21,224 bases of DNA from a virus, in the IMG/VR virus record IMGVR_UViG_3300029319_000620, positions 1 through 21,224 of that record. One strand, written 5' to 3'. The notes beneath the pieces were generated by a model, which was given only the letters and a program-made list of their open reading frames with translations, did no database searches and was not told where the DNA came from. Every line of letters begins with the position of its first letter. Position 1 is the stretch's first letter. Position numbers and translations under genes: made by a program. Shown in pieces: positions 6,023 through 21,224 of the stretch.

Positions 6023-6862
6023 ATGGCAAAATTCATAAATTATAGAGATATTGATTTAAAGATTAATTCTCAAGAGTTTTACGCTTCTCAGGTAAGCATA
6101 GGAGCGAGTGCTTCAATTGAACCTGTGATTTTAAGCGACGGAAGTCTTTTGAATTATTCTCCTACCAATGCTTTGGTTGGAGATTTTAATTGTGAATTTT
6201 ATTTAACTGATTCTTTACCCTCTTTTTTAAATGTGACGGGTACAAATGAAGATGCTGTTTCTATAAATTTTGCTGGCGTAGAAATTTCTAAAGCATATTG
6301 CAAATCTTTATCTTTTTCCGTGGAACCTTTTGCCCCTATTCTTTTGTCGGTAGAGTTTGATTGGTATGGAGATTTTAATGTACAAGATTTTAAAGAACAA
6401 AGTGTCAGAGACAGAGAATCTAAAAGTGTTCCTAATTTTTGCGCTCACGCTTTCAAAAGTTATTTAGATTCTCAAGGTATATTTAACACTTCTTTGGGGG
6501 GTAGTGATGGAAGTCAAGGGGATTCAGGGCAAGTAGGTGATGTGGTGTCTTTTTCTTATACCTCGTCTTGCGATAGGCCATCTTTTTTTAATGTTAATGA
6601 ATTAGTCCCTTTTCGTGTGGCTAAATTGAATAAAAGGTGTGAGATTGGTTTATCTGCTAGTAATTTAGGTGATTTGATCTCTTCAGACGGAAAAAAAGCA
6701 TCTACTAAAATATATCTAAAAGATTTTTATGGAACTGTGTTGAACGAATTTCCAGTAAGTGGGGTTTTATCTAATCAAAATTATAATATATCTCAAGGTC
6801 AATATTTATTATCTGAAGCTACAATAGAACAAGTAGTAACAGAAAGAAAGGTTTTAGTTTAA
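6023..6862 (+). CDS. Beta-rich tail protein, paralogue of the protein at 3343-4242
   Basis: A 279-residue, Ser/Phe/Asp-rich protein. It aligns by eye over most of its length with the 299-residue protein at 3343-4242: the VSIGASAS strand (24-31), EFYLTDSLP (58-66), a stretch ending SVEFDWYGD (109-117), and a C-terminal half that starts FSYTSS (177-182) against FNIDYS in the partner. It has an insertion-like Gly-rich loop (159-173, GGSDGSQGDSGQVGD) that the paralogue lacks. It also contains several Cys (57, 93, 140, 183, 206). The ATG follows the previous stop directly (TAAATG) without an SD. Its own stop overlaps the next ATG by one base (TAATG), which implies coupled translation. Function unknown; a distal-tail structural role is inferred from position between the tape measure and the gpM-like gene. 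Confidence 0.75.
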   Translation: MAKFINYRDIDLKINSQEFYASQVSIGASASIEPVILSDGSLLNYSPTNALVGDFNCEFYLTDSLPSFLNVTGTNEDAVSINFAGVEISKAYCKSLSFSVEPFAPILLSVEFDWYGDFNVQDFKEQSVRDRESKSVPNFCAHAFKSYLDSQGIFNTSLGGSDGSQGDSGQVGDVVSFSYTSSCDRPSFFNVNELVPFRVAKLNKRCEIGLSASNLGDLISSDGKKASTKIYLKDFYGTVLNEFPVSGVLSNQNYNISQGQYLLSEATIEQVVTERKVLV

Positions 6863-8868
6863 TGAGTTATATAATTTCAGGATTAAATCTAAGTGGAATT
6901 TACGAATACTCTTCTGCTGAGCAGTATGAAAAATATGATATTGTTGATTATCAATTAAATGATTCTGAGGCTCTTTTTCCTGATTATCAAGGTTTAGGTG
7001 GTGAGTCTGGTATAGCTTTCTGGTTTAGCAATGATTATATAGCAAATTTTACAGTAGATGAAACAAGTTCTATCGAAAAATGGTCAATAAGGAATAATAG
7101 AGTTTCTTATGCAGAAGATCAAGATCCTTCTGTGTGTCTAAGTCAAAGTGACACTTCAAAAAGACCAGTGATAAATTTAAATAGTAATTTCACTATATTG
7201 AAAGGCTCAGAGTCTTTAGCTGGAGATGTTGGTGAGTTAAATAATAGAACTTTTTTTATATGTTTCGAAGCGTTACCTTTCTCAGATACATCTTTTGACG
7301 CTCAAAATATTTTTTCTGTAAGCGATGATCAAAATTTTTCCAGCAATGTTGGGTCGATAAAAATTAAAGGAGATGATTCTTATGTCAGTCCTAGTTCTCA
7401 AGCGTCTATAGTTATAGATGGAGTAGATTACAGCGCAGCTAATATTCTGTATAATCAGCCTAATATTTTAACAATAGTTCAATCTTATAATTCAGACACT
7501 CTTGCTAAAAATATTATTGTTAGGCAAAATGGTTTAGAGGTTGCAAATTTAAATACTTTTAATGCTGGTTGGCTAGGAGAATACTTAAAGATAGGAGACA
7601 ATCCGAATAATCAAGGAATAAAATATTATGACTTTTTTTGTCATGATGTTGTTTTGCCTGATTATACAATAAAATCTTATGAGAAATACTTATATGAAAC
7701 TTACTTTAATAATGAAGGTTTGTATTTTGCTAAAAAAGATGTTCCAGCGGGAGCATTGAACGGGCCTTTAACTCCTGTTGGAACAGAATATTGGACAAAA
7801 AATATAGATGATTTATTTACCTTGAGTTATGGTTGTTCTGTAAGCTTTTCAGCTGAGCTGTCTAAAGCTAATTTAGGCGATGGTTATCAAAGTAATGTGG
7901 CTAGAAATATAAATTCTCTGAATTCTAAATTTGATTTGAAATATGAAGGGTTGACAGATAAACAAGCTAAGTCTTTAATTGGTTTTTTTGAAAACACTCC
8001 AGAAAATGAAAATAATAATATAAATGAAGGTTTTTCTGGGGTTAAAATGAATTTATTTCCCCCTTATAAAACTAATTCAGAATTATATTTTTTAGACATA
8101 AGTCACCAAACCCCATACAACAATATAAATAACATTTCTATATCAGCTGAGTCTTTATATGATAGCAGTTTAGATTACAAGGGAATGTTAGTTCAATTAG
8201 ACGAAACTAATATAAGAACTTACTCTAATGATTTATCTTCTTTTGAATATAATGATGTTGTTTATTTTGATAGTTCAAATATTAATCAGAGGGGGTATTA
8301 TTACTATACTGGAGAAAAAACACAAGGGTCTTTAAACGAAGCAAATTCTCCGATAGGTGAAAACTCTTATTTCACAAATGAATTTTATTTTAAAAATGAT
8401 ATAGATTACGATATAAACTCTAATATCAGATTAAATATTATTGACTATGAAGGATCTTCTAAGCAGTATTTAAAAGACGGATTAAATTACAATCTATTAG
8501 AATTTGATCTTACGTTTTCTAATCGAACTAATAAAGAAGCTTTATCTCTTTTAAAATTTTTAGACTCTAAAGCTGGATTTAAAACTTTTGATTACACTTT
8601 ACCTCAACCTTACAATAAAAAAATACAAGTTTTTTGTCCTGAGTGGAGTCATACTTACAATTTTTTGAATAATAATGAAATAACTATGAAGTTTAAGGAG
8701 TTTAAATCTGAGCCTAAAAGAACTACGGTTTTTAATACAAAAGTATTTTTTGATGCAGCTCCTACAACTCAAAATAATGTTAGAAATGACCTAATTGATA
8801 CCATATTATATGGAAGAATTATAGAATATAATGGGTTATTATTTTCAGAAAAGACTTTAGTTTATTAA
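6862..8868 (+). CDS. Composite minor tail protein: two gpM-like units, carbohydrate-binding-like modules and a LamG-like domain
   Basis: A 668-residue protein. The last third (about 517-614) looks like a lambda gpM-type minor tail domain: FDLTFSNRTNKEALSLLKFL, then FDYTLPQPYNKK, FCPEWSHTYN and a closing ITMKFKEF. A diverged copy lies at about 322-430 (FDLKYEGLTDKQAKSLIGFF, FPPYKTN, ISISAE). Each copy is preceded by a short aromatic module resembling carbohydrate-binding modules: YEKYDIVDY ... YFAKKDVPAG...YWT, and FEYNDVVYFD ... YYYYTGEKTQ...YFT (449-505). The first module is interrupted at about 32-284 by a LamG/concanavalin-like domain (W54, W74, KRPVINL at 100-106, QNGLEV at 222-227, YEKYLYETYF at 273-282). 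Canonical gpM is only about 100 residues, so this one is greatly enlarged. A C-terminal tail (615-668) is unassigned. Position upstream of the gpL, K, I and J homologues supports a tail-tip role. Glycan binding is inferred. Confidence 0.75.
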   Translation: MSYIISGLNLSGIYEYSSAEQYEKYDIVDYQLNDSEALFPDYQGLGGESGIAFWFSNDYIANFTVDETSSIEKWSIRNNRVSYAEDQDPSVCLSQSDTSKRPVINLNSNFTILKGSESLAGDVGELNNRTFFICFEALPFSDTSFDAQNIFSVSDDQNFSSNVGSIKIKGDDSYVSPSSQASIVIDGVDYSAANILYNQPNILTIVQSYNSDTLAKNIIVRQNGLEVANLNTFNAGWLGEYLKIGDNPNNQGIKYYDFFCHDVVLPDYTIKSYEKYLYETYFNNEGLYFAKKDVPAGALNGPLTPVGTEYWTKNIDDLFTLSYGCSVSFSAELSKANLGDGYQSNVARNINSLNSKFDLKYEGLTDKQAKSLIGFFENTPENENNNINEGFSGVKMNLFPPYKTNSELYFLDISHQTPYNNINNISISAESLYDSSLDYKGMLVQLDETNIRTYSNDLSSFEYNDVVYFDSSNINQRGYYYYTGEKTQGSLNEANSPIGENSYFTNEFYFKNDIDYDINSNIRLNIIDYEGSSKQYLKDGLNYNLLEFDLTFSNRTNKEALSLLKFLDSKAGFKTFDYTLPQPYNKKIQVFCPEWSHTYNFLNNNEITMKFKEFKSEPKRTTVFNTKVFFDAAPTTQNNVRNDLIDTILYGRIIEYNGLLFSEKTLVY

Positions 8869-8878
8869 AATAAATATT

Positions 8879-11860
8879 ATGCCATCAGATTACAATAAAG
8901 GAGTGGTTTTAGATAAAGTGCCAACAGGTTTTGGTATATATACAGGAGTAGTTTTGAAAAATAATTCTACTGATCCTGTGACTTATACTATTTCTTCAAA
9001 TAAAACTACACTATATAAAGGGTTAAATGAAACGCAGCAAATGCCTGTTACTGATGGTCTTTTAGATGAAATAGCAAATAATACAATACAGGTTTCATCT
9101 GACTTAGAAAACATTAAAGATGAATGTTACTTAGATTTAGGTTCATCGGAATCAGGTATTTTTTATATAACTCATAAACCTTTTTCTACATTCAATGAAG
9201 ATGCTGACGGTAATTCTTTTGCGTCAACAGGTTATGAAATTTCAAGTATAAATATTTCTAGCACTTCCCATGAGGGAATAGATGACAATTTAATAACTAT
9301 AGATGTAACTGGTCAACGAATACTAGACCCGCCGAATCCTGATAAATTATTGAAATTTTATTGTAAACAAGGTTACAATGAAACAAATGGATTTTATTTA
9401 GATGCTAACTGGGCTATTCCTGAAGGGCAAAATTTTTTAACAGGTTTTGTTTTAGATATTTGTAGCGATAATAGTTTTTCGAATCATATAGGCGAATCTC
9501 CTTATTATATAAAAATAGAAAAAAATACTGATTCATCTTTGCCTGATTATTTGGGGTATTACAATGAAAATGTTGAGAATTATTCTCATCGGGTTGAAGG
9601 TTTATCTTTAGGTGATTCATCAATATTCGCTAGAATTAAAGGTTTAAATGGGTTAAACGAAGAAAGTCCTGCTGCTTTTGCTAAAAAAGTTGAGTTTCAA
9701 GAAAATATAGTATTTAATGATGAAACTTACTATTCGAATAAAGTGACACCGGGAGATGATTTAAAGGCGGTTGCTCGTTCTTTGCTTATAGAAACTGTCA
9801 TTGATGAAAGTCAAAATTTAGATTTAACTAATTTAATACGTGGGTATAACAATAATTCTTACGACCTTTCGATTTATGATTCAGTATATATTAAAATTAA
9901 ACCTAAGTCTAGTGATGGTAAATTAGCTGTAATAAATTCATACATCAAAGATTCTGCTGCAATTTTATTTAAAAAATTAGATAAAAATTTTAAGTTCGTT
10001 AAAAGTTCTGCTGGTAGCAAATTTATTGTATATTTAGATCTTTTGGATGCTGAAGTTATTGGTTATGATGGTAAGGGTTCTTATTTCGAAAATGGTGAAG
10101 CTGTGCCAGCTGAAAGCGGAGGTGCTTTATTCGATTTAGATTACATCGAGAATAATGGCATTGAAATTGATTACTATATATTAAAAAATAAAAATTCACG
10201 ACTTTTAGCTGGGTTAGGTGGTGCTAGCAGTTACACTAAAGATACAACATCCGATAATGAAGTTACAAAGAGTTTTTATGCAGGAGGTGTAACAGACAGG
10301 CAAAATACAAACTTTTTGCAAGACGACGCTATAGTAGAAAATCCAATCGAAGGGAATGTTAAAAATATATCTAGTAGAGGTTCCGATGGTTTACTGTTGA
10401 GAAAGGGAAATAAACTTCCTGATGTGTATTTAAGTATTTCTGGTAACCCTAGTTATAGTTCTAATAAATTATTTTTTAGATTTTCTTCAAAAAGTTTAAC
10501 TTCAACCAACGTTGGAACCCTTTCTCATGAATGGGTTAAGTATTCTGGTATCAAGAATGTTAGTTTTAAGTCATCTAGCGTTGAAGGTTCGTTTTATGCA
10601 GATACTAATAAACCATTAAGAGTTTGCGAAGCTTATGGTAAAAAGTTTTATGAATTATACCACAGTACAGGTATAAATAGTGTTTACAATTCTTTAATTA
10701 CTATGCATGATTCTGATAGTGGCCATAGTCCTAAATTTCCTGTTTTTTTTGGTAATCAGCAGGGAAGTGTGGATTTAAGACCTAATTATACAATTTTAGT
10801 TTTTGCTTTAGGTCGGAAAGATTTTGCGTCATCCTCTAATACTAATATTTCTGCTTCTAGGGAAACTAGTTCTATATTGCTAAACGAAATGAGTTTTATA
10901 CAAAGATTTATTGACTCAACGGATTGGCCAGCTGAAGTTGTTTTTAGCGGGAATACAAATTTAGAGAGAAATAGTAATAATAATTTTTCTGCATCTGGTT
11001 TCAGCGCAAATTTTAAATCCACATTGAATACAAATCGTAATAACTTTCAAACAAGAAAAAATAGAGCTTCTTTTGTCGGTTCCGCTTTAAATAGTATTGA
11101 TTATGTTCAGCCCGGATATCTTTATAAGAAAGAAGGAAATGAACTTAAGGATAAACATTTTGCAAGAAAAGATTATTTTTACTCTAACAAAAGATCATCT
11201 ACTTATAATGTTATTGGAAGCCTAGATAATTTTGAAAAACTTTGGAGTGATCTAATAGTTTATGATCAAACAGGTTTTAATGGGGGTGGCCATAATTCAT
11301 TTACGCCTCAAAATTCATCTAATACTCCACTATTCAATGAAAGCGATGGAATATTTAAAATTAACAATGGAAGTGAAGAAGATTTAAAAGTTTTTAACTT
11401 GTATTTTGTTTTGATGAAATCAAGCTTGGGTAGTAAAAACGGTGTTAATTATGTGAACGGTGTTGAAAAACCTTTAGATGAAATTTTAACTAACGAAACA
11501 TTTATTAATGGCAAGAAAGTTTTTGAAAATAATTTAATTATGCAAAATACAAAAAATCCAAAACATATGCTTATATCACTTATAAATTCTTCAGGTAACA
11601 CCTATGATGGCGATATTAGTAATGGTGATAGGCCGAGATTATATTTAATGGATTACATGTATGGAGTAGAAGATACTATCGCGCAAAGAGATATAACATC
11701 TAATAACATGATGGATTCTTTAATTTGTGACTATCGACCTTTAATTCTAAAATCTTCTAATCTTCAAGTAGTAAAACAGGGACAGGGGTCAAGCCAAGGC
11801 GAACAATTATCTTTTGGTTTACCTGTTAGTCATAATTATTTACAGATATACACAGGATAA
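8879..11860 (+). CDS. Large tail-tip-associated protein of unknown function with an Fn3-like segment
   Basis: A 993-residue protein that I do not recognise as a whole. The N-terminal 50 residues contain TGFGIYTGVVLKNNSTDPVT, a possible attachment domain. Residues about 150-272 look like a fibronectin type III repeat: PPNPDKL at the start, the strand WAIPEGQNFLTGFVLDI (178-194), HRVEGLSLGDSSIFARIKGL (237-256) and NGLNEESP near the end. The remaining roughly 700 residues are Ser/Asn/Lys-rich, without membrane segments, catalytic motifs or evident repeats. A few glycine-containing turns and a late SSQGEQLSFGLPVSHNYLQI tail are visible. It lies between the gpM-like and gpL-like genes, a place where lambda has no gene. 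It starts 10 bp after the previous stop with no SD. A structural or adhesive tip role is inferred; other possibilities remain open. Confidence 0.65.
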   Translation: MPSDYNKGVVLDKVPTGFGIYTGVVLKNNSTDPVTYTISSNKTTLYKGLNETQQMPVTDGLLDEIANNTIQVSSDLENIKDECYLDLGSSESGIFYITHKPFSTFNEDADGNSFASTGYEISSINISSTSHEGIDDNLITIDVTGQRILDPPNPDKLLKFYCKQGYNETNGFYLDANWAIPEGQNFLTGFVLDICSDNSFSNHIGESPYYIKIEKNTDSSLPDYLGYYNENVENYSHRVEGLSLGDSSIFARIKGLNGLNEESPAAFAKKVEFQENIVFNDETYYSNKVTPGDDLKAVARSLLIETVIDESQNLDLTNLIRGYNNNSYDLSIYDSVYIKIKPKSSDGKLAVINSYIKDSAAILFKKLDKNFKFVKSSAGSKFIVYLDLLDAEVIGYDGKGSYFENGEAVPAESGGALFDLDYIENNGIEIDYYILKNKNSRLLAGLGGASSYTKDTTSDNEVTKSFYAGGVTDRQNTNFLQDDAIVENPIEGNVKNISSRGSDGLLLRKGNKLPDVYLSISGNPSYSSNKLFFRFSSKSLTSTNVGTLSHEWVKYSGIKNVSFKSSSVEGSFYADTNKPLRVCEAYGKKFYELYHSTGINSVYNSLITMHDSDSGHSPKFPVFFGNQQGSVDLRPNYTILVFALGRKDFASSSNTNISASRETSSILLNEMSFIQRFIDSTDWPAEVVFSGNTNLERNSNNNFSASGFSANFKSTLNTNRNNFQTRKNRASFVGSALNSIDYVQPGYLYKKEGNELKDKHFARKDYFYSNKRSSTYNVIGSLDNFEKLWSDLIVYDQTGFNGGGHNSFTPQNSSNTPLFNESDGIFKINNGSEEDLKVFNLYFVLMKSSLGSKNGVNYVNGVEKPLDEILTNETFINGKKVFENNLIMQNTKNPKHMLISLINSSGNTYDGDISNGDRPRLYLMDYMYGVEDTIAQRDITSNNMMDSLICDYRPLILKSSNLQVVKQGQGSSQGEQLSFGLPVSHNYLQIYTG
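11854..11857 (+). promoter_or_regulatory. Shine-Dalgarno-like AGGA
   Basis: AGGA ends 6 nt before the ATG at 11864, overlapping the end of the previous gene. It supports that start; most neighbouring starts have nothing comparable. Confidence 0.4.
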
Positions 11861-11863
11861 CAT

Positions 11864-13894
11864 ATGTCAGATTTATTTTTAATAGATAATCAACAGATAA
11901 TAGATTTATTTGAAATTAAGATTAGTGATTTTGATGGTTATTTTTATTTCCATGGGTCAAAAAATTTCAATAAAAATTTAGTTTTTAATGGGATTACTTA
12001 TCTTTATATTCCTGTGGAAATGTCAAATTTATCATACGACTCAGAGGGAAAGCAAAACAGACCTGTTGTAAAAATTAGTAATGTTAATAATTTTATAAGC
12101 GATTTAATAAAATCTAAAGGAGACTTGTTGGGTAAAGATTTTCATAGAAAAAAAATATTAGCTAAAGACTTAGATGATGTTAATTTTGGTGGGCGCAATA
12201 AAAATTTATTAGGTGTTTCTAATTTTAGGGATTATATATCTCAAGATAAATTTATCATAAATAAAAAAAATAGTGAAAATAAAGAAAGAGTAGAATTTGA
12301 ATTATCTAATATTTTAGACATTGATGGTCTAACTTGTCCTTCTAGAAAGGTTTATAACAATAGTTGCCCATGGCAATATCGAGGATATGGCTGTAATTAC
12401 GGTAAAAGATTAGGGTATGATGGCCCTAATGTATTTTTAAGAGAGTTTGGAGAAACATCACCAGCGTCTAGTTTATCTAGTCTTTTAAGTGAAGAAAGCT
12501 TTAATGGTTTGAAAGATAAATTAATTTCTTGGTTTAATTTTGATACAGAAACAACTAATTATGTTAAAGGTGGACCGAAAGCTTTTGATATGCGAACAGG
12601 AGATTCTTCCTATGAAAGGCAGAGATTAGATACTCTTAGTTCTTGGAAAAATGTAGCATCTACTATAAATACAACTGATTCTGGTAGTATGATTACTAAT
12701 GATTTTCAAATAGCCAATCCTACGATAGGGGGTTCTGCTCAGCGTCCAGCGCTTATTACTGCTAATTCGTATATGAATGGTAAAAGATCTGTTTGTTTTG
12801 TATATAACAAAGTATACGAAGGGACTAGAGCATTAAGCGCATATATACCAACTAGTAATTTTAATGATAAAGATTTGACTATTGTTTATGTATGTAGACC
12901 TACAAGCCTTTTTAGTCCATGGAAACCTCTTGAAAGAAATAATAGAGATTTTGTGCCTTATGGTGGTAAATTTTCAAGAGGTATGACTACTTTAAGTAAA
13001 GATACTTTTTTAGGTTTTAAAGGCTTAAGGGCTGCAGATAAAGACGAATATGAAACCAAATCGACTGATGATTCTTTTAAGATCAAAAGTGATAATAATA
13101 TCGTAACAGGAGTTAATAGCCCTTACTTAAATATGAATAAACCATACATATACACCTCTGTAATACCTGCTGCCAACGGGGAAAATGCAATTTTTTATAG
13201 AGATGGGTTTAAAATATCAGAAATAACTGTTAACTATGGTGGTGTAGGTCAAAGTCATAATATTGAAAATTTAGGATTTAACATCGATGATTCAGTTTAT
13301 AGCGAAATGGAAGTTTATGAAGTAATAATATTTAACGCTAAATTAAACGAAATTCAAGTGAGGGGGGTTAACGCTTATTTGAGTGAAAAATATGGTATGA
13401 AAGTAAATAATTCACAATTTTCAGGTATTAAATCATCTTCTAGTGCTAGTTTTTTCAATGATGAAGATGGAAATATGGGGGTGCCGATTGCTGATGAAAA
13501 TGATAAATTGTTTTTTGACGAAACTGCAAAAAAAACATTTAGACGTTATTCAACTTATGGGTTTGATAAGTTAACTTATAGAGGGGATTACAACAAAAAA
13601 ACTGTATATAAAAAAGGAGATTTCGTTAAAATAGATTCAGAGATAAATTTTGATTTTAATAGAGATGTGCTTACGAAGGATTCTGAAATTCCTGCTAAAT
13701 TTTTTGTGTGTATTAATGAAAACGGTTCTGTTGGTATAAACCCTCTTGATAGAACAGATATTTGGGTAGAAGATAAGTGTTCTAAAAAATTGAGCGGGTG
13801 TATTGCTAGGTTTAGAAATGAAAGTACAGATGATAGGGTGCCTTTTGGTGGTTACCCCGGAACTGTTTCTTATCCATACGAATTACCCAGTTAA
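11864..13894 (+). CDS. gpL-like minor tail protein with LamG-like and carbohydrate-binding-like insertion in its Fe-S motif
   Basis: A 676-residue protein related to lambda gpL, whose C-terminal domain binds an iron-sulfur cluster through four Cys. The two halves of that motif are present but far apart: SCPWQYRGYGCNYG (Cys168, Cys177) and DKCSKKLSGC (Cys639, Cys646), followed by the family signature VPFGGYPG (659-666). An additional Cys158 precedes them. Between the halves, residues about 216-511 form a LamG/concanavalin-like domain: ISWFNFD, W261, QRPAL (293-297), YRDGFKI (445-451), LGFNIDD and NAYLSEKYGM near the end. This domain resembles the LamG-like domain of the gene at 6862. Residues 570-637 (YRGDYNKKTVYKKGDFVKI ... 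ICINENG-like stretch ... DIWVEDK) look like a chitin/carbohydrate-binding module. The usual gpL is about 230 residues, so the excess is explained by the insertion. Role: connector of the tail tip between the gpM-like and gpJ-like parts, with predicted surface glycan binding. Confidence 0.85.
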   Translation: MSDLFLIDNQQIIDLFEIKISDFDGYFYFHGSKNFNKNLVFNGITYLYIPVEMSNLSYDSEGKQNRPVVKISNVNNFISDLIKSKGDLLGKDFHRKKILAKDLDDVNFGGRNKNLLGVSNFRDYISQDKFIINKKNSENKERVEFELSNILDIDGLTCPSRKVYNNSCPWQYRGYGCNYGKRLGYDGPNVFLREFGETSPASSLSSLLSEESFNGLKDKLISWFNFDTETTNYVKGGPKAFDMRTGDSSYERQRLDTLSSWKNVASTINTTDSGSMITNDFQIANPTIGGSAQRPALITANSYMNGKRSVCFVYNKVYEGTRALSAYIPTSNFNDKDLTIVYVCRPTSLFSPWKPLERNNRDFVPYGGKFSRGMTTLSKDTFLGFKGLRAADKDEYETKSTDDSFKIKSDNNIVTGVNSPYLNMNKPYIYTSVIPAANGENAIFYRDGFKISEITVNYGGVGQSHNIENLGFNIDDSVYSEMEVYEVIIFNAKLNEIQVRGVNAYLSEKYGMKVNNSQFSGIKSSSSASFFNDEDGNMGVPIADENDKLFFDETAKKTFRRYSTYGFDKLTYRGDYNKKTVYKKGDFVKIDSEINFDFNRDVLTKDSEIPAKFFVCINENGSVGINPLDRTDIWVEDKCSKKLSGCIARFRNESTDDRVPFGGYPGTVSYPYELPS

Positions 13895-13907: not shown

Positions 13908-14234
13908 ATGGATAATATAAAGAAAAATAAACGACTTTTAAGTGAATTAAAAGATATTAGTGTTTCCTGCGACGAAGAAGTTTGTGGTTTTATAAAAGAT
14001 AATGAATTTCACGCTAGAAAAAATGCACACCCTGATCCTAAGAATTTTTTTTTGATTGCGCCTTCTGATTGTGTGTGGGGTGATGATGTTGTTTTGTTTC
14101 ATAGCCATCCGCGACATGCTGGGCTTAAAGGGTTTTCAGATTGGGATTTACAAAATCAAAAAATTTTTGATTTAAGCATGGTTTTATACAGTGTAAAGAA
14201 TGATGAATTTTACTATTATATAAATGATGACTGA
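13908..14234 (+). CDS. JAMM/MPN metallopeptidase domain protein, gpK N-terminal-like
   Basis: A 108-residue protein with the JAMM zinc peptidase signature. Glu24 lies in EVCGFI, then FHSHP with His65 and His67, then SDWD with Ser77 and Asp80, spaced as in H-x-H-P-x(8)-S-x-x-D. In lambda the gpK protein joins such a domain to an NlpC/P60 peptidoglycan hydrolase domain. Here only the JAMM part exists, and no NlpC/P60 (Cys-His) domain is visible anywhere in the window. All metal ligands are intact, so activity as a metalloprotease in tip assembly or maturation is plausible. Target unknown. It lies between the gpL-like and gpI-like genes, exactly where gpK is in lambda. No SD precedes the ATG 13 bp after the previous stop. 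A run of nine T (14045-14053) falls inside the gene. Confidence 0.88.
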   Translation: MDNIKKNKRLLSELKDISVSCDEEVCGFIKDNEFHARKNAHPDPKNFFLIAPSDCVWGDDVVLFHSHPRHAGLKGFSDWDLQNQKIFDLSMVLYSVKNDEFYYYINDD

Positions 14235-14862
14235 TATAACTTTAAGGGGTATTTTAGGTAAAAAATTCGGAAAAAATTGGAAACTCAGTGTTTCTAGTGT
14301 TTCTGAAATTTTCGAAGCAATAGAAGCTAATACTTCTAAAGTGTCAGCTTATTTTAAGGATGTTCAAAAATTTTCTACTCATTTTTTTGTTTTAATAGAT
14401 GGAAAAATAATGCCTAATTATTTAATAAATAGTAGAATTTTAACAGGGAAAAATAAAGTTGAGATAGTGCCAATAATACAAGGTGGAGTAACAGCGGCTG
14501 TAATTTTTGTTGTTGGATTATTATTAACTGTGCTTTCGATTGTGTTAACTAAAATGTTAAGTCCTAAATCGCCTAGAGATGTAAAAACTAGTTCAACTAT
14601 TTTAGGTAAAGTTCGCAATGTAACTTCTCAAAATATAGTTGTTCCGATTTGTTATGGTAGATTAAGAGTTGGAAGCGCTGTTGTTTCAAATTATTTAACT
14701 ATAACAGATGATGGTTTTGAAGGCATACAGGTGGAAGAGGGAAACAGAGGCTTCGTATATAACACTCCCCCTACTGAAAATGACTTTGAATATTACAAAA
14801 AAATATCAAAACCAAACACTGATGGTATTGACGAGTATCAAGTTTACACTGAAGGAAAATGA
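14224..14862 (+). CDS. Tail assembly protein, lambda gpI-like
   Basis: A 212-residue protein matching the gpI family in layout. An N-terminal ubiquitin-like half contains ITLRGILGKKFGKNWKLSV (5-23), SVSEIFEAIEA (25-35) and ends in KVEIVPIIQGG (78-88). One hydrophobic Gly/Val/Leu helix (about 89-112) follows, a likely membrane or buried tail-tip segment. Then comes the family motif ILGKVRNVTSQNIVVPICYG (126-145) and RLRVGSAVVSNYL (146-158). It should help load or assemble the central tip protein encoded by the next gene. The start overlaps the JAMM gene by 11 nt; ATG at 14224 and ATG at 14227 are both possible, so two adjacent Met are shown. The stop overlaps the next start as ATGA. No SD precedes it, which favours coupled re-initiation. 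Confidence 0.85.
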   Translation: MMTDITLRGILGKKFGKNWKLSVSSVSEIFEAIEANTSKVSAYFKDVQKFSTHFFVLIDGKIMPNYLINSRILTGKNKVEIVPIIQGGVTAAVIFVVGLLLTVLSIVLTKMLSPKSPRDVKTSSTILGKVRNVTSQNIVVPICYGRLRVGSAVVSNYLTITDDGFEGIQVEEGNRGFVYNTPPTENDFEYYKKISKPNTDGIDEYQVYTEGK

Positions 14863-17800
14863 AAGAGTTTTTTTTAAATGGGTTTTATATATTGGGTGAA
14901 AACCAAAAAACTACAAGCACAGATCAGGTTGTTTTGTCTACTGATTTATTATGCGAAGGTCCAATTCAGGGGTTGGTTGATTCTGATGGCAGTACATTAA
15001 AATTTTTAAAAAATAAAAGTTTGTCAGACGTTGGATTGGGTAAAGGAATTTATTACAATGATGTACCGATTATAGATTCAGAATTAAATAAGTTTAACTA
15101 TATTAGTAAAGGTTATGAAATTACTGATGGGTCTAATAATGCTGATTTTTGGGACTACCCTTCTACAGTTTTTAGATATAATTCCCTGCTTGGCCTTAGT
15201 AATATTAACGCTAATGTAGCTTTGTCGAAAATAAATAGTTTAGGCCATTGTGTTGTTTTTGACGGTACGGAAGATGGAAGTTTTTCTTTTGCCGGGGCTA
15301 AAGATTCTCAACAATTTTATAGTGCAATTCCTGATTACGACCAATATGATTGGCTTCTTGGTTATGTTCCTGCCGAAGGCTATATACATGGTACGTATCG
15401 CTACGATTTGAAATTTCCAGTAGCAACGGAGCCTTATAACGTAGCAAATAGGTTGATTAATTTCAAAGGCAATGCTCCAGTTTTTTCTCATAAAATAAAA
15501 AATAAAAATATTGATGAGATAACTGTTAATTTTAATGCGAATCAACTTTTTACGATGGACAATGACGGCGACACCCTTGCTGACAATTTGGATTTTTGTA
15601 TAGAGTTAACTCAGGATAATAACATTATTAGATATTTTATTTATGTTCCAGTTTCCCTAGTTTCAAAGGGGAATAAATTAATTCCTGTAAAAATAAATGT
15701 TGATTTAGATGATTCTTCTCCTAATGACTATTATGTGAATATTTTTATGTTGGCTAAAACAGTCGCTCTTAAAGATGGTAGGACGCAAAGATCTGCGATT
15801 TTAGATAGTATCGTAGAAACGGTTAGAAGAAAGGGTAAATTTAATTATCCTTATGGAGTTGTATGCAAAAGTATGTTGAGTTCTAGTCATTTTAAAAGTG
15901 ATCCCACTAGAAGTTTTGACATAAAAGGTCTAAAAGTTAAAGTACCTTCTAATTATGATCCAGATTCTAAGCAATATTATGGTAATTGGGATGGAACATT
16001 TAGTAAATTTTTACAATGGACTGATAATCCAGCTTGGATTTATTACGATATTTGTACAAATCAAAGGTATGGGGTAGGTAACGGAAATGTTTTATCAGAA
16101 GATTTAAATAAATGGGAACTATATAAAATAGCAAAATATTGCGATGAGTTAATCGAGTCCACATCTCCTAAGCGTTATGAGGCAGATGATTTTATTTACT
16201 ACCCTCAAATTAGAGATAGCATTTTTATTTCTAAGGTTTCTTCTTCGGGGGTTGAAAACACTATACATTCTATGCGAGAAAAATACAAGCCTTTAAATAG
16301 CGGAAACGCAAACAAAATAAGGAATTCCGACAATGAAAATAATTCAGGATGGGATATAGTAAATTCTATTGTGTACTTGTATGATATAGATAAAGGTGGA
16401 CATGGCGCTGTGAAAAAAGTGCTTTATTCGGTAACGGAAGGAGATGTGATTGAAAGTGCAGATGGTACACCGACATTTCAAGAAGCAGAAACGGAAGGGG
16501 CTGGGGGTTTATTTAGATTACATTGTGGTAAAGATTTTAGCCCTTCATGGTTTTTTCAAAACGAAGAAAATGGAAGAGGATTGAGTAATTTTAAAGAAGT
16601 TATTACTCCTCATGGTGATATTAGTAACGAAAAAAATTCATACAAATATGTTAAGCAACAAATTGCATTCGCTAATGCAAATACAGAATTAGGCGCTAAA
16701 GCTATTTTGCTGGCATATATATACCATAACTGGTGGGCAGAAGGCAATGACTGGATTAAAAGAACTTTAATAACTGATAGTTTATTTGAGGGGCAGTCTG
16801 GGCAAACTATATTAAGAGGTAAATGTATGCCTAAAGCAGAAAATTTTAGGGAACCTTTAGAGCCTAGATTTACTGCTAATTTATATATAGATAATGAGAC
16901 GGAAGTATTGAAGTTGATTAATGATATAGCTTCTATTTTTAGAGGTTTAACTTATTATAGAAACAATTTAATCACAACAACTATAGATGTGAGTAAGCCT
17001 ATTTCTTATATTTTTAATAACTCTAATGTTAAAGAAGGTTTGTTTTCATATTCGACTGGAAGTATAGATGGGAATTATAGTGTTGCAAAAGTATTGTATA
17101 AAGATAAATATAAAAACTTTTCTGACGAAGTTGAAATTGTCGAAGATGCAGAATTGGTAAAAGAATTTGGAATTGTTTCAAAAGAAATATTAGGGTTTGG
17201 TGCAACTTCTAGAGATCAAGCTAGAAGAATGGGTTTGTGGCTGTTGTCTACTAATAGATTTGAAAATGAAACTGTTAGTTTCACTACAGATATTCAAGGG
17301 TTACTATTGAAGCCCGGAGACGTTGTTCAAGTTCAAGATTCTTTCAAAAGTCTATTTACATTACATGGAAGAGTTGTTGATATTAATTTAGACCAAACTG
17401 ACGCTAATAAAAATTACATAATTATAGATAGAAAAATAAATATTCGTTTTGCTGGTGAGAAAATTAAATTTTTATTTAATAATGTGAGAAAAAATTACAA
17501 GGCTATTACCGATTCAAGTCAGTATGAAGAAAATGAAAATTATGATGTAATGGAATTAGTTATAGATCGGATAGAAAACAAAGGCAATAAGATTTATTTT
17601 AAGGGTATACAAGGCGATTCATTAGAGGATAATGTTAATTTTATTAATTTTTCAAAACTTGCTGTTGCTACACCTTTTATTATTCAAGGGGATTCTTTGA
17701 ACTCCAAAATTCAAGAGGAAAGAACACTTATTTCAGAAAATGATCTTGATTATGAAAGAGAAAATGAAAACCTTTATAAAATAATTAGTATAAATGAAGA

Positions 17801-18371
17801 AGATGTAAACGAATATTCTATCTTTTGTGTTAAATATGATAGGAATAAATATTTAAGTTTAGATAAAAATGTAATACAGGTAAAAACCGAAGCCTCTAAA
17901 GAAAAAATATCATATTCTACCTCTGAAAATATAGTAGAGTTAGATTTATCTGGGATGGGTGATGATTATTATGAAGTTATTAGGGTTGATTTTAAGAAGT
18001 TAAGTTCTCTTAATTTTGATTACCAATTCTGTAAAGAAGAAAACTTTATGGATTTTTCTGAAAGCGCGAATTATGCATATATTAATTTGAAGTTTTCAGA
18101 AATTTATAATTATGTTAACAATCAATCTGATAGTGGAAGCACTTATTATAACAAAGTTTTAAATATTTTAGAAAAAAATGGAGGTTTTGTTTGTAAAGTC
18201 CAATCCGAAAATCAATCAATAAGATTTAAGGTTCCTTACATAAATATGGAAAATAAATCTATATTTTTAGGTAAATATCCAAATTCTGTAGACACCCTTG
18301 GGCTCATATCTTTTAAATCTGATGTTAAAATTTATTTATATGATGATCAGAATAAAATTATAGAGGTGTAA
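14859..18371 (+). CDS. Central tail-tip protein, lambda gpJ-like, with a 235-residue insertion
   Basis: A 1170-residue protein that should form the trimeric hub or host-specificity protein at the tail end. The N-terminus carries STDLLCEGPIQGLV (27-40), typical of gpJ. WTDNPAWIYYDICTNQRYGV (387-406) and KYCDELI (426-432) follow. EPRFTANLYIDNETEV (668-683), FRGLTYYRNN (694-703), FSYSTGS (729-735), TSRDQARRMGLWLL (783-796), LKPGDVVQVQD (817-827) and YKIISINEEDVNEYSI (973-988) are all standard gpJ landmarks. In lambda the CDELI-like and EPRFT-like motifs are nearly adjacent. Here about 235 residues (433-667, nt 16155-16859) separate them. The protein ends about 180 residues after the YKIISI motif, without the long Fn3 and fibre extension seen in some gpJ proteins. 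The ATG overlaps the gpI stop by 4 nt. An AAGGA ends only 2 nt before it, too close to be a normal SD. Confidence 0.92.
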   Translation: MKEFFLNGFYILGENQKTTSTDQVVLSTDLLCEGPIQGLVDSDGSTLKFLKNKSLSDVGLGKGIYYNDVPIIDSELNKFNYISKGYEITDGSNNADFWDYPSTVFRYNSLLGLSNINANVALSKINSLGHCVVFDGTEDGSFSFAGAKDSQQFYSAIPDYDQYDWLLGYVPAEGYIHGTYRYDLKFPVATEPYNVANRLINFKGNAPVFSHKIKNKNIDEITVNFNANQLFTMDNDGDTLADNLDFCIELTQDNNIIRYFIYVPVSLVSKGNKLIPVKINVDLDDSSPNDYYVNIFMLAKTVALKDGRTQRSAILDSIVETVRRKGKFNYPYGVVCKSMLSSSHFKSDPTRSFDIKGLKVKVPSNYDPDSKQYYGNWDGTFSKFLQWTDNPAWIYYDICTNQRYGVGNGNVLSEDLNKWELYKIAKYCDELIESTSPKRYEADDFIYYPQIRDSIFISKVSSSGVENTIHSMREKYKPLNSGNANKIRNSDNENNSGWDIVNSIVYLYDIDKGGHGAVKKVLYSVTEGDVIESADGTPTFQEAETEGAGGLFRLHCGKDFSPSWFFQNEENGRGLSNFKEVITPHGDISNEKNSYKYVKQQIAFANANTELGAKAILLAYIYHNWWAEGNDWIKRTLITDSLFEGQSGQTILRGKCMPKAENFREPLEPRFTANLYIDNETEVLKLINDIASIFRGLTYYRNNLITTTIDVSKPISYIFNNSNVKEGLFSYSTGSIDGNYSVAKVLYKDKYKNFSDEVEIVEDAELVKEFGIVSKEILGFGATSRDQARRMGLWLLSTNRFENETVSFTTDIQGLLLKPGDVVQVQDSFKSLFTLHGRVVDINLDQTDANKNYIIIDRKINIRFAGEKIKFLFNNVRKNYKAITDSSQYEENENYDVMELVIDRIENKGNKIYFKGIQGDSLEDNVNFINFSKLAVATPFIIQGDSLNSKIQEERTLISENDLDYERENENLYKIISINEEDVNEYSIFCVKYDRNKYLSLDKNVIQVKTEASKEKISYSTSENIVELDLSGMGDDYYEVIRVDFKKLSSLNFDYQFCKEENFMDFSESANYAYINLKFSEIYNYVNNQSDSGSTYYNKVLNILEKNGGFVCKVQSENQSIRFKVPYINMENKSIFLGKYPNSVDTLGLISFKSDVKIYLYDDQNKIIEV

Positions 18372-18382
18372 TATATACTAGT

Positions 18383-21224
18383 ATGGCAACTTTTAGTGGA
18401 TTAACTGGGCCTTTAACCAGTGCTTTTGAAATAGAAGGTTTAGGAATAAAGCAATTATCTAGGCATAGTTCTTTAGATGGTTCTTTATCTCCTGAATCTG
18501 TTGGCTTACTTCCTAATTCAAAATTAACCTCTTTTACAGTTGGTCAAGATAGCTTTGAGGTAATATTACAAGTAAAAGATCCTCAGTCTAATGAGTCGAT
18601 AAGTGGAGATATTATACATTCTAATGATTTTTCAGGCATAAAAGTAGATCTCTACGATGAAGATAGAAATTTGATAAAAACTTTTTTAAAATCTAAATCT
18701 ACTTCACTTAAATTTGATAGTTTTGAATTTTACAATTCTTTTTCACAAGTTTTTGGCTCTGACTCAGCAAATGAGTATAGGAGTTTTTTCTTAGATTTTG
18801 AAACTGTAGATTTTTCTAATAACACTGATGTTCATAGTCTTTATTTAAACTATCCAAAACCTAATATTACTGGTTTTGACATATCAATTTCAAATCCCGT
18901 AAAGGTTTCACCTTTAATTGATAATTATTCTTTTTTAAAACAATTGTCAATATACACTACACCTTCTGTTAGTGGATTTTTGCCTACTGGTCGTTCTAAT
19001 TTTAATGCCCATCCTAATTATGGACTTGTTAAGCAGATATATTTTAATCAACAAAGCAATGCTTACGATCAGTCTTATAATACTGATAAAATGTGTTTTG
19101 AGTTTGATCCTGTAGTTTCAGGTTCACCTTCGGATTTAGATTTTGGTTCGTATTATAATTCTCAAGATTATATTAATCCATTTCACTTTGTTGGTATAAC
19201 GGAAGATTATTTCAGCACTGGCAGTTATTTTGTTTCATCTGGTATAAAATTAAGTAAATACAAAGAGGAATTAGTTCCTGCAAAATTAAACAATTTAACG
19301 GGTTTTGTTTTTGCGGACCAGAATAAGTATGATAAAAATTTAGACACAAAGGCTGTTTTAAAATGGGATGCTTTGCACCAGAAAGAAGTTTTGTCCTTTG
19401 AGGCTCATGTGCAAGAATATGGAGACGAAAACTTAAGCTATGTTTTTACATCTCCTAATAAAAAAATTAACATTGTGGAGTGCGCCGCTCATGGTACCGG
19501 TGTAGATGTAATAGCTAATTTAAAGACTAATACTTATTATTCTGGGTCGGAGCCTATTTTTACACCTTATGAAAATTCTGGAATAAAGTGGCCAGATCAT
19601 ACTTTATATATAGATAATTTTTCTTCTTTGCCTGTGGGGCTTTATGAAACAGGTTTTATTTTAGCAAATACAACTGAAATTAGAATTCCTTCTGGTTTTT
19701 CTAGTGATCCTGAATTGTATTTTAATTTTGGTTACGAAACTGGATCAAACCAATTTTTAATTTTTCCTAGCGGAGGTTTCTTTTCTGGGTCAGTTTATAC
19801 TGGAACTTATAGTGGAGCTAAATATACTGGAGGATATCAAAATCAAGAAGATTATCCTCCTTTAGGTTCTGATGGAGTATCTGGATTTTCTCCTTTAAAA
19901 GTAAATTTTGAAACAGGTACTTTGTTTGCAAAAAGGGTAACAGGATCAACTGGAGAAATAGATTTTATCCTATCTGAATTTGAGCCAAAGGTGGAATTTA
20001 ATGTTAAGCCTAATAAAAATTATGAAGTAAAAGTTAGAGCATCTTATGAAGATGGTACAGCTTCAGATTTTTCTGATGCGTTTTTGTTTACTTCAGGGCA
20101 AATATTAAACAATATAGAACAAATTTTTTCTGGTAAGTATGTAGTAGCTGGTTCAGGCACAAGTGGTTTTATTCCTTACTTTAGTGGCGATGATCTAATA
20201 TATGATTCTGTTATTTATCAAACTGAATCTGGTGATATAGGCATCGGGGTGACTGGAGACGATATTTCTGGTCAATTACACATTGGTGGGGATGTTTTTG
20301 TGGATGCGATTATTGAAGATCAAAATGCAGATAAAGTTTTAACGTGGAATGCTGATAGTAAATTAATTAGTTTTTCTACTTCAGGTTTAAGTGGTAATTC
20401 TGGATCAAGCGGAACTTCTGGAACTAGTGGTAGCTCTGGCACATCTGGAACTAATGGAAGTAGTGGAACCAGTGGCACTTCTGGAACTAGTGGAACTAGT
20501 GGAACTAGTGGTAGTTCTGGAACTAGTGGAACTAGCGGGACAGATGGATCTAGTGGGACTAGCGGAACTTCTGGAAGTAGTGGAACCAGTGGTACTTCTG
20601 GAACTAGCGGAACAGATGGAACACATGGGACTTCTGGCACTAGTGGAACTAGCGGGACAGATGGATCTAGTGGGACTAGCGGAACTTCTGGAAGTAGTGG
20701 AACTAGTGGTACTTCTGGAACTAGCGGAACAGATGGAACACATGGGACTTCTGGCACTAGTGGAACTAGTGGCATTTCTTCGACATATGTTGGAGAATCA
20801 ACTACTTCGATTAATTTATCTAGTTTATCTGTGGGGGTTAACACTACTTTAACCACAAGCAATGGTTTAAGTTATACAAATGGTCAATCTGTTTTAGTTT
20901 CTCACAATATAAATAACCGTTTCGATGGTTACGTCGTTTCTTATAACATAAATAATGGTTCTTTAGTATTAAATGTTATTTCTATTACAGGAACTGGTAC
21001 TTATTCTTCTTGGGATACAAACTTAAATGCTGCTGCTGGACCATCTGGAACTTCTGGAACAGATGGAAGCAGCGGAACTTCTGGATCAAATGGCACTTCT
21101 GGAACTAGCGGAACTTCTGGAACTAGCGGAACTTCTGGAACTAGCGGAACTTCTGGAACTAGCGGAACTTCTGGAACTAGTGGTAGCTCTGGCACATCTG
21201 GAACTAATGGAAGTAGTGGAACCA
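18383..21224 (+). CDS. Large tail fibre protein with Fn3-like and Gly-X-Y repeat regions, 3' partial
   Basis: The frame from ATG 18383 (MATFSGLTGPLTSAF) stays open to the window end, giving at least 947 residues. Residues 1-300 are Ser/Asp/Phe-rich and unassigned. Around 300-570 lie Fn3-like pieces (AVLKWD near 310-315, NYEVKVRASYEDGTASDFSD at 546-565) with an apparent inserted segment between them. Residues 583-667 match the fibre pattern GTSGFIPYFSGDDLIYDS, GDIGIGVTG, LHIGGDVFVDA. Residues 668-799 are 44 perfect Gly-X-Y triplets, mostly GTS or GSS. Residues 800-885 form a small compact beta domain (GLSYTNGQSVLVSH ... WDTNLN). From 886 the Gly-X-Y triplets resume to the edge. It starts 11 bp after the gpJ-like gene; GAGGTG lies 14 nt upstream, too far for a strong SD. 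Role inferred: a long side or central fibre extending from the tip. Confidence 0.85.
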   Translation, partial: MATFSGLTGPLTSAFEIEGLGIKQLSRHSSLDGSLSPESVGLLPNSKLTSFTVGQDSFEVILQVKDPQSNESISGDIIHSNDFSGIKVDLYDEDRNLIKTFLKSKSTSLKFDSFEFYNSFSQVFGSDSANEYRSFFLDFETVDFSNNTDVHSLYLNYPKPNITGFDISISNPVKVSPLIDNYSFLKQLSIYTTPSVSGFLPTGRSNFNAHPNYGLVKQIYFNQQSNAYDQSYNTDKMCFEFDPVVSGSPSDLDFGSYYNSQDYINPFHFVGITEDYFSTGSYFVSSGIKLSKYKEELVPAKLNNLTGFVFADQNKYDKNLDTKAVLKWDALHQKEVLSFEAHVQEYGDENLSYVFTSPNKKINIVECAAHGTGVDVIANLKTNTYYSGSEPIFTPYENSGIKWPDHTLYIDNFSSLPVGLYETGFILANTTEIRIPSGFSSDPELYFNFGYETGSNQFLIFPSGGFFSGSVYTGTYSGAKYTGGYQNQEDYPPLGSDGVSGFSPLKVNFETGTLFAKRVTGSTGEIDFILSEFEPKVEFNVKPNKNYEVKVRASYEDGTASDFSDAFLFTSGQILNNIEQIFSGKYVVAGSGTSGFIPYFSGDDLIYDSVIYQTESGDIGIGVTGDDISGQLHIGGDVFVDAIIEDQNADKVLTWNADSKLISFSTSGLSGNSGSSGTSGTSGSSGTSGTNGSSGTSGTSGTSGTSGTSGSSGTSGTSGTDGSSGTSGTSGSSGTSGTSGTSGTDGTHGTSGTSGTSGTDGSSGTSGTSGSSGTSGTSGTSGTDGTHGTSGTSGTSGISSTYVGESTTSINLSSLSVGVNTTLTTSNGLSYTNGQSVLVSHNINNRFDGYVVSYNINNGSLVLNVISITGTGTYSSWDTNLNAAAGPSGTSGTDGSSGTSGSNGTSGTSGTSGTSGTSGTSGTSGTSGTSGTSGSSGTSGTNGSSGT
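20408..20471 (+). repeat. 64-bp dispersed direct repeat, copy 1
   Basis: These 64 bases recur exactly at 21161-21224, 753 bp downstream and in the same reading frame. The second copy is cut by the window end, so the shared stretch may be longer. Confidence 0.85.
20531..20764 (+). repeat. 117-bp tandem duplication inside the Gly-X-Y array
   Basis: Bases 20531-20647 and 20648-20764 are the same 117 bp (39 codons, 13 triplets) with a single visible difference, C at 20587 versus T at 20704, which is silent for Thr. Each copy contains the unusual GTDGTHG segment. The near-identity indicates a recent duplication. Confidence 0.9.
21095..21180 (+). repeat. 18-bp tandem array encoding Thr-Ser-Gly pairs
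   Basis: The unit ACTTCTGGAACTAGCGGA is repeated exactly four times (21095-21166) and then partially to 21180. Each unit encodes TSGTSG. Perfect copies of this kind are prone to slippage. Confidence 0.85.
21161..21224 (+). repeat. 64-bp dispersed direct repeat, copy 2, truncated by window end
   Basis: Exact match to 20408-20471 with an offset of 753 bp, a multiple of 3. The two copies bracket the non-repetitive domain at 20780-21037. Confidence 0.85.

Follow-up and report, generated by a model that had tools for sequence, protein, structure and literature searches.

The window, a 21,224-base virus record from IMG/VR whose whole length is the reference for all coordinates given here, contains the tail module of a lambda-like phage. 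Pfam and PHROG matches identify genes for tape measure, gpM-like, gpL, gpK-like, gpI, and gpJ proteins. The gpM-like minor tail protein (6862..8868, + strand) matches PF05939 at residues 507-613 and has its own LamG-like N-terminal part. The gpL-type tail-tip hub protein of 676 amino acids (11864..13894, +) lies between gpM and the gpK-gpI-gpJ genes, the position expected for the lambda gpL family from the PHROG and Pfam assignments, except that one additional gene separates it from the gpM-like gene where lambda has none. This gene (8879-11860) encodes a 993-amino-acid protein without a Pfam or PHROG match that is among the least conserved proteins across the relatives. Downstream of gpL are a gpK-like protein (13908..14234, +; phrog_30, E=3.4e-10; Prok-JAB, 0.039), a gpI-like tail assembly protein (14224..14862, +; phrog_32, E=2.4e-25), and a gpJ-like central fibre protein, the partner of gpL (14859..18371, +; phrog_31, E=1.4e-100). 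The gpK-like protein is only 108 amino acids long and matches just the JAB-type part of gpK families, with no NlpC/P60 peptidase part detected in it. After gpJ, a fibre-like frame with collagen-like Gly-Thr-Ser-Gly repeats of 9-base period (20387-21224) runs off the end of the contig.

The original prediction, made from the DNA letters, called the 676-residue product a gpL homologue, and this is borne out by matches to Pfam, NCBIfam, and PHROG profiles and by aligning it directly with the lambda protein. The protein matched Phage_tail_L (PF05100) at E=2.5e-30 (105.8 bits against a curated cut-off of 25), NCBIfam TIGR01600 at E=3.8e-34 (117.9 bits against a cut-off of 70.75), PHROG 18 at E=3.3e-42, and the lambda gpL chain 8iyk_L at E=5.5e-15. 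Its N-terminal HDI-type domain (residues 1-167; 11864..12364, +) aligns with lambda gpL, and 8iyk_L is its top Foldseek match in the PDB. The two proteins also have in common the four cluster cysteines, a GGF(P)-type C-terminal signature, and a gene upstream of gpK, gpI, and gpJ.

In the lambda structure, the cluster density is surrounded by four residues of gpL, Cys173, Cys182, Cys205, and Cys212 (PMC10721106). Their counterparts in the window protein are Cys168 (12365..12367, +), Cys177 (12392..12394, +), Cys639 (13778..13780, +), and Cys646 (13799..13801, +), which are invariant both when the protein is aligned with lambda gpL plus six further gpLs and across all 26 aligned relatives. The sequence context of the cysteines, CxWxYRGxxC and DxCxxxxxxC, is likewise kept in every aligned relative that bears an insert. 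The remaining gpL cysteines vary among the 26 sequences, with the exception of one, located in the small insert module described below, which nearly all of them have. The distance from the second to the third cysteine is 462 residues in the window protein, compared with 23 in lambda gpL, which has 232 residues and no insert, and 22 or 23 in most gpLs. The separation of the two pairs by about 460 residues is thus confirmed, the coordinates predicted for it, 12365-13801, are exact, and the VPFGGYPG signature that was said to be intact downstream is found at residues 659-666 (13838..13861, +) in alignment with other gpLs.

Lambda gpL has the sequence GYSGPAVADEYDQPTSDITK from its second cysteine to DKC, and part of this loop survives in the middle of the window insert as GVPIADEND (residues 539-547; 13478..13504, +), which aligns with the lambda GPAVADEYD. 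A module of about 310 residues lies N-terminal of the remnant, and another of about 75 residues lies C-terminal of it. The large module (residues 205-518, with outer limits of about 189-535; 12476..13417, +) is the most divergent part of the protein. In an AlphaFold2 model of the 676-residue gpL built from 26 sequences (mean pLDDT 71.5, pTM 0.57), much of the large module is modelled at a pLDDT of 75-93, and residues 153-165 and 171-177, in the iron-sulfur region around Cys168-177, are below 50. Foldseek searches of the PDB returned lambda gpL as the best match, followed by jelly-roll lectin-type domains, and among the viral models (BFVD) matched are many phage proteins annotated as concanavalin-A-like or LamG. 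By structure comparison, then, the large module has a LamG/concanavalin-A-like jelly-roll fold, in agreement with the LamG-like domain read earlier from the sequence. The LamG Pfam model gave no match in the window gpL at E values up to 1, and no Pfam model matches either part of the insert, so the class assignment rests on structure and on a C-terminal pattern, IFYRDG...YEVIIF...YLxxKYG. Foldseek also matched the jelly roll to lectin domains of toxins and sialidases, which was taken as similarity of fold only.

The small beta module (residues about 564-636; 13553..13771, +) is common to short-insert relatives and, when modelled separately, has a pLDDT of about 90 in its core strands. Its matches to CBM5/12 proteins are weak and none is significant singly (Foldseek, E of 0.13-9; hmmsearch, E of 0.9-2.2). 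Sequence and structure searches both return proteins of chitin-binding or tail-fibre type, namely, the A-1(L) cyanophage fibre, Anabaena All3316, Serratia ChiB, and a chitin oligosaccharide deacetylase. The second, carbohydrate-binding-like domain of the original prediction corresponds to this module, which looks CBM5/12-like on sub-significant matches that agree between methods and is a putative member of that class.

The loop remnant between the modules suggests two separate insertions. In a short-insert group (L009, L012, L018, L025, L026, L032, L033, and L037), the remnant is likewise present, the C-terminal module is the only one, and the spacing is 129-145 residues. The simplest reading of these sequences is that the small module was inserted first and the large one later, although the order of events is inferred.

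The distribution of spacings was surveyed by a motif scan of IMG/VR DNA for CPWxYRGxxCGY, with counts taken over distinct closed gpL ORFs containing both cysteine pairs. At least 102 such ORFs were found; among the matches listed, 95 of 102 have a spacing of 21-45 residues, made up of 77 with 21-24 and 18 with 25-45, and 7 exceed 45. The CNY version of the scan yielded 24 ORFs, 18 of them with spacings above 45 and 6 with 21-24. A profile-guided scan recovered 34 long-insert relatives, many of which are identical, and the 17 other distinct ones that were aligned have spacings of 386-526 residues and keep all four cysteines. Single-protein scans with gpL and gpJ against IMG/VR, and with gpJ against genome_contigs, found no relatives. 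The gene order from the gpM neighbour to the fibre is conserved in the long-insert relatives. The recurrence of the layout with its gene order in 17 other distinct relatives rules out a sequencing, frameshift, or assembly artefact and indicates that the long insert is stably maintained within a phage lineage. Judged from the alignments, the four-cysteine and insert layout is not due to chance, as the cysteines are kept while the LamG part diverges. One contig, assigned by binning to a lake Bacteroidetes genome, carries gpK, gpI, and gpJ along with the C-terminal part of a closely similar gpL. This single bacterial-bin match was not accepted as a host assignment; the contig is probably viral, and it represents either a faint clue to the host or a virus placed in the wrong bin.

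The N-terminal domain averages 0.73 identity across 18 long-insert proteins, compared with 0.32 for the LamG part (23% gaps), 0.57 for the CBM-like part, and 0.70 for the C terminus. The dN/dS ratio in most close long-insert pairs is 0.03-0.13 in the N-terminal domain, and it reaches 0.5-1.3 in the LamG part of several pairs; synonymous changes were too few for a ratio in the closest pair, L169 and L170. Between L186 and L188, 17.4% of bases differ in the LamG part, compared with 2.0% and 3.9% in its flanks, whereas another close pair, L178 and L180, has no excess divergence there. This pattern of substitution fits a fast-diversifying surface module, for which selection and recombination are not separated by these data. 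The otherwise similar L169 and L170 contigs differ at gpL residues 255-285 by clustered, mostly nonsynonymous changes and 3-base indels. A diversity-generating retroelement was considered because these differences cluster and often hit A, and it was rejected because no reverse transcriptase was present in 14 related records (which are fragments), no template repeat was present in the window, and the differences also include the 3-base indels.

The LamG region of the gpM-like protein and the gpL insert match each other at the level of profiles (hhalign, E=2.4e-5, probability 75.6), a similarity found only by profile comparison, since BLASTP of gpL against the gpM-like protein gave no match. In the short-insert relatives L009 and L033, similarity to the window gpM-like protein starts only at residue 309, so that a LamG part in the gpM-like protein goes together with one in gpL within one lineage.

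Inserts of other kinds occur elsewhere in the gpL family. L061, L115, and L125 contain a related insert at the Cys2-Cys3 site (spacing 321-323), and that of L061 matches putidacin L1-type lectin-like bacteriocins, which are monocot-mannose-lectin-like (NF033557, E=5.8e-15). Weak B_lectin matches were obtained for L061 (E=0.0005) and L115 (E=0.0002). Synechococcus phage S-CBS4 gp036, a PF05100 gpL of 465 residues with a spacing of 261, also has a large insert, positioned as in the window protein; unlike the window insert, it apparently consists of helical arms with a small domain, and L010 and L056 have similar helical-looking segments around a small domain in this loop. In L015, L016, L019, and L034, 240-500 residues are instead inserted after the fourth cysteine and before an FGGFPG signature, so that the gpL iron-sulfur domain has at least two insertion sites. 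The Cys2-Cys3 loop has repeatedly received unrelated domains, namely, a CBM-like module alone, LamG plus CBM, a putidacin-type lectin, and a coiled coil.

Solved tail hubs offer precedents for a domain of sugar-binding type lying between the two pairs of cysteines. In the hub of the RcGTA gene transfer agent (Rcc01696, 6TEH), an iron-sulfur cluster is held by four conserved cysteines, and the ion-binding domain is split (residues 143-167 and 250-263) around an oligosaccharide-binding domain at residues 168-249 (PMC7296036). The hub of roseophage R4C (8GTC) repeats this arrangement, with an oligosaccharide-binding domain between the iron-binding halves (PMC10276861); its cysteines are at 147, 157, 244, and 251. 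The upper baseplate protein gp50 of phage JBD30 has four metal-binding cysteines at 147, 156, 238, and 245, with pairs about 80 residues apart, but the small domain between them is not described as LamG and the metal is described as putative. Cysteine pairs are 80-90 residues apart in all three of these solved hubs. The expectation that the arrangement was undescribed is therefore contradicted by RcGTA and R4C and by the cysteines of JBD30 gp50. The RcGTA and R4C hubs belong to PF09931/PF09356 and have an oligosaccharide-binding insert of about 80 residues, whereas the window gpL contains about 440 residues of LamG plus CBM5/12-like sequence and gave no match to the PF09931 N-terminal domain, which the R4C hub matches at E=6.5e-44. 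What the window gpL has in common with these hubs is an architecture with a domain between cysteine pairs, and not family membership. Evolved Dit and Tal proteins of phages with Gram-positive hosts also have carbohydrate-binding modules in loops of core tail-tip proteins, although not within an iron-sulfur motif (PMC7291167). Within a literature coverage that was incomplete, making this a weak negative, no report of LamG in phage tail hubs was found, nor any description of a LamG-class or lectin-bacteriocin-type domain in the PF05100 loop or a count of filled loops. The apparent novelty lies in how large the insert in a lambda-type gpL is and of what kind, and in the repeated uptake of unrelated domains by the same loop.

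We consider it likely, with a probability of roughly 0.7, that the window protein is a hub subunit of the lambda gpL type whose iron-sulfur domain acquired two modules by separate insertions, and that these modules make weak, reversible contacts with surface glycans. A CBM5/12-like module would have been inserted beside Cys3 and a LamG/concanavalin-A-like jelly roll beside Cys2 of a 22-residue loop. The cluster, if formed, would tie together the two roots of the insert so that the modules hang outside. Each tip would carry three LamG and three CBM-like modules that contact surface glycans weakly and reversibly, acting with the adjoining LamG-like parts of the gpM-like protein, and our best guess for their role is that they touch glycans as the phage adsorbs. 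We infer cluster assembly, the outward position of the insert, glycan binding, and the role in adsorption for the window protein; the glycan-contact reading draws on the putidacin-type lectin domain that other phages place at the same gpL site and on the sugar-binding-type domain that the RcGTA and R4C hubs carry at this spot.

LamG folds also bind proteins or play structural parts, and no ligand site was recognised in the insert. Scaffolds that bind no sugar often make use of jelly-roll and CBM-like folds, so that the insert could be mainly structural or protein binding, with the jelly roll and small beta module bracing the tip or docking side fibres. Consistent with such a role, one domain of the baseplate protein All3316 is similar to the CBM-like module, and the four-cysteine protein of JBD30 forms part of the fibre attachment sites. 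The LamG part is, however, the least conserved region while the core and clip are conserved, which is unlike a docking interface, and the domain found at the same place in other phages is of lectin type; we regard a structural insert as unlikely. Less probable still is that the cluster has been lost in this lineage, the four cysteines keeping local structure or binding another metal and the insert having replaced the role of the cluster domain. The putative status of the metal ion in JBD30 and the low model confidence around Cys168-177 would agree with such a loss, and some gpL C-terminal regions lack the cluster cysteines (PMC13243795), but all aligned insert-bearing relatives keep the four cysteines and their CxWxYRGxxC and DxCxxxxxxC motifs without change.

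Beyond glycan contact by a decorated gpL, a broader and more tentative possibility is that the Cys2-Cys3 loop is a general exchange port. The cluster would staple the root of the loop, allowing unrelated sugar-binding domains to be exchanged and to diversify as heads that bind receptors, on a hub core that does not change. What the iron-sulfur cluster of gpL does has been described as still to be characterised (PMC10721106). If true, the exchange port would give the cluster a function, that of a rigid base able to accommodate bulky, exchangeable adhesion domains. The gpL loop may be an overlooked place for receptor-binding determinants in environmental phages, and the insert-length variants would provide natural material for structural work.
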